64,000 nucleotides of DNA from Erythrobacter sp. JK5 (GTDB lineage: Bacteria; Pseudomonadota; Alphaproteobacteria; Sphingomonadales; Sphingomonadaceae). The translations under genes and the position numbers were made by a program. Location: positions 620,001 to 684,000 of the forward strand of contig NZ_CP073577.1 in NCBI RefSeq assembly GCF_018205975.1. Reading direction: 5' to 3'. The notes below the pieces were generated by a model. It did not search any database, had not been told where the DNA came from, and saw nothing but the letters and a program-made list of their open reading frames with translations. This document shows positions 18,376 through 21,057 of this stretch, in pieces (the stretch's first letter is position 1; each line of letters opens with the position of its first letter).

Positions 18376-19266
18376 TTACGCCATTTCCTTCAGCATCGCA
18401 TCGAGCGTGGTGCCGAGTTCGCTGGGGCTGGGCGAGACGCGGATACCGGCCGCTTCCATCGCTGCGATCTTGTCGTCGGCGCCGCCCTGTCCACCCGAGA
18501 CGATCGCGCCCGCGTGGCCCATGCGGCGGCCCGGAGGCGCGGTGCGGCCCGCGATGAAGCCGACCATGGGCTTCTTTCGGCCCTTGGCAGCTTCCTGCTT
18601 GATGAACTCGGCGGCTTCCTCTTCGGCGCTGCCGCCGATTTCGCCGATCATGATGATGCTTTTGGTTTCGGGATCGTCGAGAAGCAGGTCGAGCACGTCG
18701 ATGAAGTTGGTGCCGTTGACCGGGTCGCCGCCGATGCCGACTGCGGTGCTCTGGCCGAGGCCGACCTGCGTGGTCTGGTGCACGGCTTCATAGGTGAGCG
18801 TGCCCGAGCGCGACACGACGCCGACGCTGCCCTTCTTGAAGATCGAACCCGGCATGATGCCGATCTTGCATTCTTCCGGCGTCAGCACGCCGGGGCAGTT
18901 CGGGCCGATCAGGCGCGATTTCGAGCCGCGCAACGCGGCCTTGGCGCGGACCATGTCGAGCACCGGAATGCCTTCGGTGATGCAGATGATCAGTTGCATC
19001 TCGGCATCGATAGCCTCGCAGATCGCATCGGCGGCGAAAGGCGGGGGTACGTAGATGCACGATGCGGTGGCTCCCGTGGCTTCCTTGGCCTCGCGCACGG
19101 TGTTGAAGTTGGGCAGGCCGATATGGGTCGTGCCGCCTTTGCCCGGCGTGACACCCGCCACCATCTGCGTCCCGTAATCGAGCGCCTGCTGGGTGTGGAA
19201 CGTGCCGGTATCGCCGGTCATCCCCTGGGTGATGACCTTGGTGTCTTTGTTTACGAGGATGCTCAA
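18376..19266 (-). CDS. sucD: Succinyl-CoA synthetase subunit alpha (TTG start created by an insertion)
   Basis: The alpha subunit of succinate-CoA ligase carries the phosphorylated histidine and the CoA-binding fold. Length is 296 residues. [20 protein letters not shown] opens the CoA domain, [17 protein letters not shown] follows, and [20 protein letters not shown] contains the active-site His. The reading frame now starts with TTG at 19266, preceded 4 nt upstream by GGAGAGA (19271-19277). Both are supplied by the edge of an inserted GIY-YIG unit. A second copy of the gene's original start, ATG TCC ATC CTC GTA AAC, lies at 19724 with its own AAGGGG site. sucC, the partner subunit gene, is not in this window. 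Confidence 0.96.
19241..19261. repeat. Target duplication, sucD-proximal copy
   Basis: A 21-bp copy of sucD codons 2-8 that matches 19701-19719 except for two extra T. The shared block GTTTACGAGGATG is perfect over 13 bp. It directly borders the inserted unit at 19262. Confidence 0.8.
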
Positions 19267-19282
19267 CTCATCTCTCCAGTTT

Positions 19283-19310
19283 CGTCACCCCGGCGAAGGC
19301 CGGAGTCCAG
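19283..19310. repeat. Palindromic repeat, sucD-proximal end of the GIY-YIG unit
   Basis: A 28-bp unit with core CCGGC-GAAG-GCCGG framed by CGTCA and TCCAG. It is the reverse complement of 19670-19697 with one mismatch. It begins 1 nt after the stop codon of the GIY-YIG gene on the minus strand. Confidence 0.85.
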
Positions 19311-19311
19311 T

Positions 19312-19605
19312 TCAACTCAAAACCAACTCGAACAGATCGTCCCAGTCGGGGTTCTTCTCTTCGATCGCGCGCAGTTTCCAAGCGCGCTTCCATTCCTTCA
19401 TCTGCTTCTCGCGCTCGATGGCGGCTTCGATGGTGTCGTGGCGTTCGAACCACACCAAGGTCTTGCAGCCATACTTCTTTGTGAAGCCCTCAATCCTTCC
19501 TTCGCGGTGTTCCCAGACCCTCTTCGGCAAATCTGATGTCACACCGAGATAAATCGTTCCGTTTCGGCGGCTTGCCATGCTGTAGACAAAACCGCCCTTT
19601 TCCAT
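19312..19605 (-). CDS. GIY-YIG nuclease family protein
   Basis: A 97-residue single-domain GIY-YIG endonuclease of the small YhbQ/UPF0213-like type. The two motif strands are GGFVYSMAS and GTIYLGVTSDL, followed by the catalytic-arginine helix PKRVWEHREG, then KKYGCKTLVWFE and the metal-binding Glu region AAIEREKQMKEWKRAWK. There is no DNA-binding extra domain, so specificity would come from the catalytic domain. The gene is embedded tightly between palindromic repeats and starts 11 nt after the stop of a 35-codon chimeric frame that uses sucD's native start. A role as mobility nuclease for its own repeat unit is inferred from this context, not known. Confidence 0.88.
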   Translation of the reverse strand: MEKGGFVYSMASRRNGTIYLGVTSDLPKRVWEHREGRIEGFTKKYGCKTLVWFERHDTIEAAIEREKQMKEWKRAWKLRAIEEKNPDWDDLFELVLS

Positions 19606-19621
19606 CGTCCGCTACCTCAGC

Positions 19622-19649
19622 CGTCATTCCGGCGCAGGCCGGAATCCAG
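19622..19649. repeat. Palindromic repeat, internal copy of the GIY-YIG unit
   Basis: Core TTCCGGC-GCAG-GCCGGAA framed by CGTCA and TCCAG. Same orientation as 19283-19310 with four differences, and inverted relative to its neighbour at 19670-19697. Confidence 0.8.
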
Positions 19650-19669
19650 TGAAACAAGAACCGCCGGAT

Positions 19670-19697
19670 CTGGACCCCGGCCTTCGCCGGGGTGACG
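19670..19697. repeat. Palindromic repeat, distal end of the GIY-YIG unit
   Basis: Core ACCCCGGC-CTTC-GCCGGGGT, an 8-bp perfect stem, framed by CTGG and GACG. It is the inverted partner of 19283-19310. Confidence 0.85.
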
Positions 19698-19700
19698 GGT

Positions 19701-19719
19701 GTGTCTGTTTACGAGGATG
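19701..19719. repeat. Target duplication, distal copy
   Basis: A 19-bp copy of sucD codons 2-8 that lacks two T present in the copy at 19241-19261. It lies between the last palindromic repeat and the native sucD ATG at 19722-19724. Confidence 0.8.
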
Positions 19720-19735
19720 GACATCAGAGAACCCC

Positions 19736-21057
<1,322 letters not shown>

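Follow-up and report, generated by a model that had tools for sequence, protein, structure and literature searches.

The window, a stretch of 64,000 nucleotides from Erythrobacter sp. JK5, carries between mdh and sucD a compact unit in which a small nuclease gene is enclosed by palindromes. On the minus strand mdh is followed by a 94-aa ORF, a remnant of the sucD start, a left doublet of REP palindromes, a GIY-YIG gene, a right palindrome, the motif GGAGAGATGAG, a TTG codon and sucD. The features, with their positions in the window, are these:

20017..20979, minus strand: mdh, malate dehydrogenase, the upstream neighbour (Pfam PF00056 and PF02866)
19736..20020, minus strand: spacer ORF of 94 aa, with no Pfam family; genome G018 has a homologous spacer that lacks the unit
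19698..19724, minus strand: remnant of the native sucD start, ATG and codons 1-9, left of the unit
19698-19719, minus strand: upstream direct repeat, the last 22 nt of the sucD-start remnant
19617..19724, minus strand: chimeric ORF of 35 codons, from the native ATG into the palindromes (sequence reading)
19622..19697, minus strand: left REP doublet, two inverted REPs, from CGTC foot to GACG foot
19312..19605, minus strand: GIY-YIG nuclease gene, 97 aa (PF01541, E 2.6e-14)
19283..19310, plus strand: right REP, in inverted orientation to the outer REP of the left doublet
19264..19282, minus strand: right edge carrying GGAGAGATGAG and the TTG start of sucD
19240..19261, minus strand: downstream direct repeat, within the working sucD start
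18376..19266, minus strand: sucD, succinyl-CoA ligase alpha subunit (PF00549, PF02629, PF13607)

The two sides of the unit form an inverted repeat (19283-19313 and 19667-19697) of 31 nt with 94% identity, and on folding the left REP doublet becomes one long DNA hairpin (z -4.94; equalled by 0 of 200 shuffles). The sucD start is present as a direct repeat of 22 nt (19240-19261 and 19698-19719), with two mismatches in the ungapped alignment (20/22 nt); when gaps are allowed, the copies differ by two T alone. The native ATG, at 19724 on the minus strand, is the start of the 35-codon chimera. The sequence-only reading had described just this arrangement, with the sucD start on both sides of a GIY-YIG gene and its inverted palindromes, a chimera that begins at the native ATG, and GGAGAGATGAG plus a TTG ahead of sucD. 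Its description is borne out by the direct repeat, the inverted repeat and the PF01541 match, and the chimera and the TTG can be read directly in the sequence.

The GIY-YIG gene and its flanking palindromes

The protein consists of a single GIY-YIG domain that matches solved UPF0213 structures (1zg2, E 4.6e-10; 1ywl, E 9.1e-7). None of the NCBIfam models matched it at E 0.001, and Pfam shows no recognized DNA-binding domain in its 97 residues. The active-site residues Tyr8, Tyr19, Gly21, Arg29, Glu66 and Asn85 are invariant in 34 sequences. Among carriers of the sucD unit the gene shows a median dN/dS of 0.10 (range 0.06-0.24; 28 pairs, the one broken copy excluded), and purifying selection on it is strong. 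We take the gene of the window to belong to COG2827. A passage of PMC1839093 treats small UvrC-like genes (COG2827) as having an unknown role and counts three in Caulobacter crescentus; a passage of PMC7017083 relates single-domain GIY-YIG proteins to Slx1, a structure-selective nuclease.

Most of these genes turn out to be flanked by REPs, contrary to the earlier supposition that this small type is generally unlinked to REP-like repeats. The test for a REP pair was a local alignment of the 200 bp upstream of the gene with the reverse complement of the 200 bp downstream, with a score of at least 28 counted as a match. Matching inverted REPs were present at 89 of 94 loci in the genus, many of which are relatives of one another, and at none of 66 control window pairs (highest control score 27). 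The 94 loci comprise 34 that were listed (5 in this genome, 29 in others) and 60 chosen mostly from the top of a longer list. In the family, 28 of the 29 listed loci have such a pair. It recurs at 56 of the best 80 (of 583 confirmed) loci from named genomes, compared with 2 of 147 controls; these REP-positive loci are mostly from Alpha-, Beta-, Gamma- and Deltaproteobacteria, and also include one FCPU426 locus and one of the two from Nitrospiraceae. No REP pair was found at the other 24 of the best 80, which include the single loci from Chloroflexi, Planctomycetota and Elusimicrobia.

Nuclease and palindrome are matched to each other. Five distinct types of flanking palindrome accompany the five GIY-YIG genes of this genome. 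When arms were compared with those of other tested units of the same genome, the left arm paired best with its own right arm in 46 of 54 cases, and among 40 units below 80% identity, nucleases that are more alike have more similar REPs (Mantel Spearman 0.435; 0 of 2000 permutations). The foot common to the REP arms is CGTC[A/G], preceded by a pyrimidine; a fixed target word beside the foot was sought and not found, the adjoining side being only pyrimidine-rich. One locus of this genome (L003, C1:573216-573473) holds a GIY-YIG gene with an internal TGA, flanked by CGTCATTGCGAGC-type palindromes.

REPs are found away from the gene as well. A search of this genome with up to two mismatches to the REP pattern (0 sites for the reversed-pattern control) gave 23 sites, of which 7 lie in three GIY-YIG units and 16 elsewhere, the latter as five inverted doublets and six singles. 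Across the genus, 68 of 114 genomes contain the searched pattern (control 0), at 0-45 per genome. Genomes without a GIY-YIG match have a mean of 0.8 REPs, and 21 of these 27 have zero; genomes with at least four GIY-YIG matches have a mean of 14.5, and zero is seen in 2 of these 29. REP number correlates with GIY-YIG number (Spearman 0.66). After subtraction of 3 REPs per gene the coefficient is 0.12 (p 0.21) and is no longer significant, so that action of the nuclease on distant REPs is only a candidate activity. Carriers of the sucD unit have more REPs after subtraction of 4 (median 7 vs 1, one-sided p 0.002, among genomes that are not independent). The Y1/RAYT transposase (PF01797) is present in 7 of the 114 genus genomes; it was not found in the other 107, this genome among them. 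Genome G018 has 31 REPs of the searched pattern. Two of its four units were read, and their REPs are of other types; the partner nuclease of the 31 may have been lost.

Carriers, empty sites and movement

The genus set consists of 114 genomes, one per species, in 100 of which SucD was found; the mdh-sucD region was examined in 95, the five with a partial SucD match being excluded. The spacer is hypervariable, with assorted unrelated small ORFs and a length of 38-2342 nt (measurable in 93 of the 95). Nine genomes carry the unit there (G000, which is this genome, and G107, G061, G080, G042, G069, G048, G025 and G078), with identical orientation in all nine; the GIY-YIG gene of the G080 unit is broken. 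In agreement with the expectation of an empty site in relatives, the unit is absent in the remaining 86 of the 95. The companion claim of a recent insertion is not supported, as 9 of the 95 genus genomes and also members of other genera have this unit at the site, where it is thus old.

At least one GIY-YIG match occurs in 87 of the 114 genus genomes. The eight best (82-100% identity) all stand directly upstream of sucD, and the next best (69% identity) is at a different location. Family-wide, 223 of 298 genomes gave a match; sucD is directly downstream at 8 of the 29 listed family loci (L228, L229, L230, L231, L235, L237, L242 and L254), with mdh visible upstream in 7 of these 8, and 5 of the 29 (L233, L236, L238, L244 and L252) lie between sucD and sucA. 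Among the best 80 named loci, nine have sucD directly downstream, including Porphyrobacter sp. AAP82 and several Sphingomonas, and L294 is placed between sucD and sucA. The sucD-sucA spacer of G107, G061, G083, G080, G054 and G036 holds another GIY-YIG subtype with its own REPs, 48-57% identical to the mdh-sucD one.

Trees were built from short genes. On the sucD tree (FastTree, 95 rows, first 60 nt omitted, many weak branches) the nine carriers need nine changes, close to the shuffled mean of 8.7, and are therefore not clustered; four of the changes are forced by starred branches. The mdh tree (77 rows, 6 carriers) requires five. Divergence of the GIY-YIG genes among carriers is about that of their sucD genes. 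This in-step divergence speaks against a recent sweep, and also fits vertical inheritance with many losses.

The scatter of the unit over the sucD tree and the recent movement of a related unit elsewhere make mobility plausible. To this extent the earlier proposal of a mobile unit stands; its other part, a recent transposition at sucD, is not supported. The recent movement is seen in G083: a unit near 466 kb and another near 3035 kb agree at 414 of 415 bp, from the CGTC foot of the left REP to 26 bp past the right REP. No target duplication common to the two was found, and the similarity of their outer 300 bp is no greater than that of shuffles. The 60 nt immediately left of the units show weak similarity (4 of 200 shuffles equally good), so the copy may on its left side extend past the REP foot or have an older end there. 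An empty-site comparison for one G083 unit found the two flanks apart in G013 and G051 and gave no usable empty site. The REP doublet of this genome at 1259626, compared with G046 (one of six relatives aligned), fits a clean insertion with a joint that is not defined to the base; the doublet at 903908 gave no clean alignment across the joint.

Flanking duplications had been expected at other copies of the unit as well. A direct repeat at the REP boundary (score of at least 24, reached by 0.1% of random pairs) is present in only 2 of 85 GIY-YIG units, both of them the sucD unit. A wider search over 250 bp found direct repeats with a score of at least 26 in 7 of 89 units (1.7% of random pairs), and three of the strongest belong to a repeat family of its own, GTCCGC...GCGGAC. 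At L186, L194 and L197 (all G022), and also at L178 and L180, the GIY-YIG units lie inside a larger repeat with GCGGAC/GTCCGC ends. The 11 GIY-YIG matches of G022 may have moved within this repeat.

The duplicated sucD start

The duplication is beyond chance: the upstream copy aligns to the native sucD start of many relatives, and most of the alignments stop at the joint. Three of the nine carriers (G000, G080 and G107) have the upstream copy; it was sought in the other six and not found. All three copies stop at one and the same base, after codon 9 (ACACC), with the REP foot immediately following (C/TGTCACCCC). Two of the copies stand out (scores 46 and 34, with no shuffle above 22), and that of G107 is decayed and weak (24 vs 21 for the best of 40 shuffles). 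The spacer genes upstream of the joint differ among the three genomes. G018, which lacks the unit at this site, has the G000 spacer gene (72% over 195 nt) and 25 of 27 nt of the sucD start; the G080 spacer gene is likewise present, with no unit beside it, in G113, G003, G024, G109 and others; no homologue of the G107 spacer was found within the genome set. In the tree of the unit gene G000, G107 and G080 form a group with G061 (84/91, not starred), a grouping with modest support. As the joint-bearing units and G061 fall together, it is likely, but not proven, that the joint had a single origin and was later combined with different spacers.

The TTG with GGAGAGATGAG adjoins the unit in G025 and G078 too, both without the duplication, and in a variant form in L228, from another genus. 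Between the right REP and the start codon, G000 shares 91% identity with G025, G078 and L228 and 62-78% with the other six. For the first 60 nt of sucD the values are 85-97% for G025, G078 and L228, 93% for G042 and G069, and 78-87% for the remaining four. A start re-created by an insertion, as the sequence-only reading had it, is thus not supported, since TTG and ribosome-binding site accompany the unit where there is no duplication. Among the 95 genomes sucD begins with TTG in four, G000, G025, G078 and G108.

Remnants of the sucD start also occur, with other break points, in four spacers that have no GIY-YIG gene (G096, G055, G104 and G011; loci L047, L128, L026 and L078). They stand upstream of small ORFs, and spacer cassettes therefore seem to stack at mdh-sucD. 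From the shared joint, the TTG edge without duplication and these remnants, the duplication is best read as the shared joint of a horizontally exchanged cassette, and not as a fresh insertion scar.

Two other origins were considered and given up. Import of about the first 45 nt of sucD alone was replaced by the shared-joint reading after the joint and unit-tree results. A one-step import from one sampled donor does not suit a unit that is a mosaic, with its left side closest to G080 and its right edge closest to G025, G078 and L228; as the closest other protein found is 90% identical, no donor is named. The part of PMC6506933 that bears on gene-end duplications is not decisive.

Interpretation and comparison with known systems

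We put at roughly 0.58 the probability that the unit is a member of a widespread set of REP-bounded GIY-YIG modules, and an old resident of mdh-sucD that is exchanged as a cassette. Such a module would be a small single-domain GIY-YIG gene between two inverted REPs of matching type, a build like that of RAYT/REP on a different nuclease. The nuclease would recognize the REP hairpin of its own type and cut it near the CGTC foot, and the REP-bounded DNA, as whole units or as doublets without the gene, would be copied or moved without target duplication. The contents of the mdh-sucD spacer would be swapped between species through recombination in the flanking genes. At its left end the cassette would bring the joint, native sucD codons 1-9 beside the REP foot, which two relatives have in common; at its right end would come a ribosome-binding site, a TTG and the first sucD codons, all belonging to the cassette. 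Its two copies of the sucD start would make up the 22-bp repeat, which could offer recipients with unrelated spacers a short homology arm on the left.

A broader claim is more tentative, and we would give it somewhat less than even odds. The small GIY-YIG nucleases would be the missing mobilizers of a large class of REPs, CGTCAYYCC...GGRRYCCA and its relatives, in Proteobacteria and possibly outside them; they would form a second, non-HUH system of REP transposition, and the sucD module would be a cassette whose replacement 5' end allows harmless passage between species.

The main rival is intronless homing, in which a free-standing endonuclease cuts a unit-less sucD start and repair from the donor installs the unit together with a replacement sucD 5' end. 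Carriers scattered over the sucD tree, an identical joint in three backgrounds, and a right edge that travels with the unit and the first sucD codons are all what homing would give, and co-conversion of flanking markers is described for homing in a section of PMC3984707. One subtype is indeed loyal to the site directly upstream of sucD (the eight best genus matches, 8 of the 29 listed family loci and 9 of the best 80 named loci), but its relatives occupy many other sites in an identical REP arrangement, the joint is absent in six of nine carriers, and sucD-start remnants arise without a GIY-YIG gene too. Above all, carriers retain an intact presumed target at the working sucD start, so the site would stay unprotected; homing is thus weakened, and we consider it improbable.

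It also seems unlikely that the GIY-YIG gene is a mere passenger in a spacer that turns over by ordinary interspecies recombination, its REPs being terminators or mobilized by other means. A hypervariable spacer of 38-2342 nt with many unrelated small ORFs, and four spacers in which a sucD-start remnant occurs without GIY-YIG, show how much of the locus this account could cover, and the excess of REPs is not independent of gene copies. The cognate pairing and covariation of REP and nuclease types, however, do not suit a passenger, nor does the recurrence of the same layout at most tested loci, distant from sucD. The recent near-identical REP-bounded copy in G083 and the strong purifying selection on the gene argue in the same direction, and the Y1 transposase, which might have mobilized the REPs instead, was not found in most genus genomes.

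A recent staggered-cut transposition, with a target duplication of 20-22 bp and a start codon re-created by the unit edge, would explain the 20/22 nt repeat at the unit ends and the empty sites of relatives, but is very improbable, and with it a fresh target duplication, given that six of nine carriers and, by the same test, 83 of 85 units have no repeat, that G025 and G078 have the TTG edge without duplication, and that the near-identical G083 pair has no common target duplication.

Under the cassette reading, the sucD locus would be an instance of a module at the start of an essential gene that supplies the start codon and can pass between species; in annotation it resembles a short endonuclease gene beside a shifted start. 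By sequence family and domain size the 97-aa protein is like UPF0213/YhbQ/YazA and the Slx1 relatives. The reports on these, in the sections of PMC7017083 and PMC1839093 that deal with them, differ in discussing repair, and REP context is unmentioned there. A link between bacterial GIY-YIG genes and REPs was not found in searches of the open PMC literature (subscription papers lie outside this scope), and the text of the GIY-YIG superfamily survey PMC1564403 does not contain 'palindrom'.

With transposons that leave a staggered-cut duplication the unit shares terminal inverted repeats, in the form of REPs at both ends, and it differs in that a direct duplication is not found at most copies (2 of 85). 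Organellar endonuclease inserts bring a substitute end of the host gene, as in Allomyces atp6. The sucD unit is like them in that a host gene receives a new end from an endonuclease insert while its former end persists as a remnant, and unlike them in being REP-bounded, in lying on a bacterial chromosome and in affecting the 5' end. Free-standing GIY-YIG homing endonucleases, as portrayed in part of PMC3984707, offer the same catalytic domain, a subtype loyal to one gene, scattered presence and flanks that are carried along. In contrast to them, the sucD unit is bounded by REPs, encodes a single-domain protein in which Pfam shows no recognized DNA-binding domain, and has relatives at many sites, and the presumed target, from the sucD start to beyond the joint, is intact downstream in carriers.

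In layout the unit resembles RAYT units, which, in the portion of PMC2817692 that describes them, have a gene between two inverted REPs, covarying types, and scattered REPs and doublets. Here too a small nuclease-like gene stands between inverted REPs, REPs and inverted doublets are scattered, REP type tracks enzyme type and no larger target duplication is made (same portion of PMC2817692). The differences lie in the enzyme, GIY-YIG (PF01541) and not a Y1 HUH transposase; in the REP foot, CGTC[A/G] here and GT(A/G)G in RAYT REPs; and in the low REP numbers, 0-45 per genome for the searched pattern. The RAYT/REP enzyme transposes or cleaves its own REPs, and the same is a candidate activity for the GIY-YIG protein of the sucD unit. 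REP palindromes are common in bacterial genomes, and this genus has them though RAYT is absent from most of its genomes; a recurrent, covarying pairing of REP and GIY-YIG would give a candidate mobilizer, and the spread of REPs would be directly testable. The pairing of nuclease and palindromes across many bacteria, as compared here from their sequences, points to a little-noticed kind of mobile DNA. The layout is known from RAYT/REP; what looks new is a REP-transposase-like unit built on a different nuclease.
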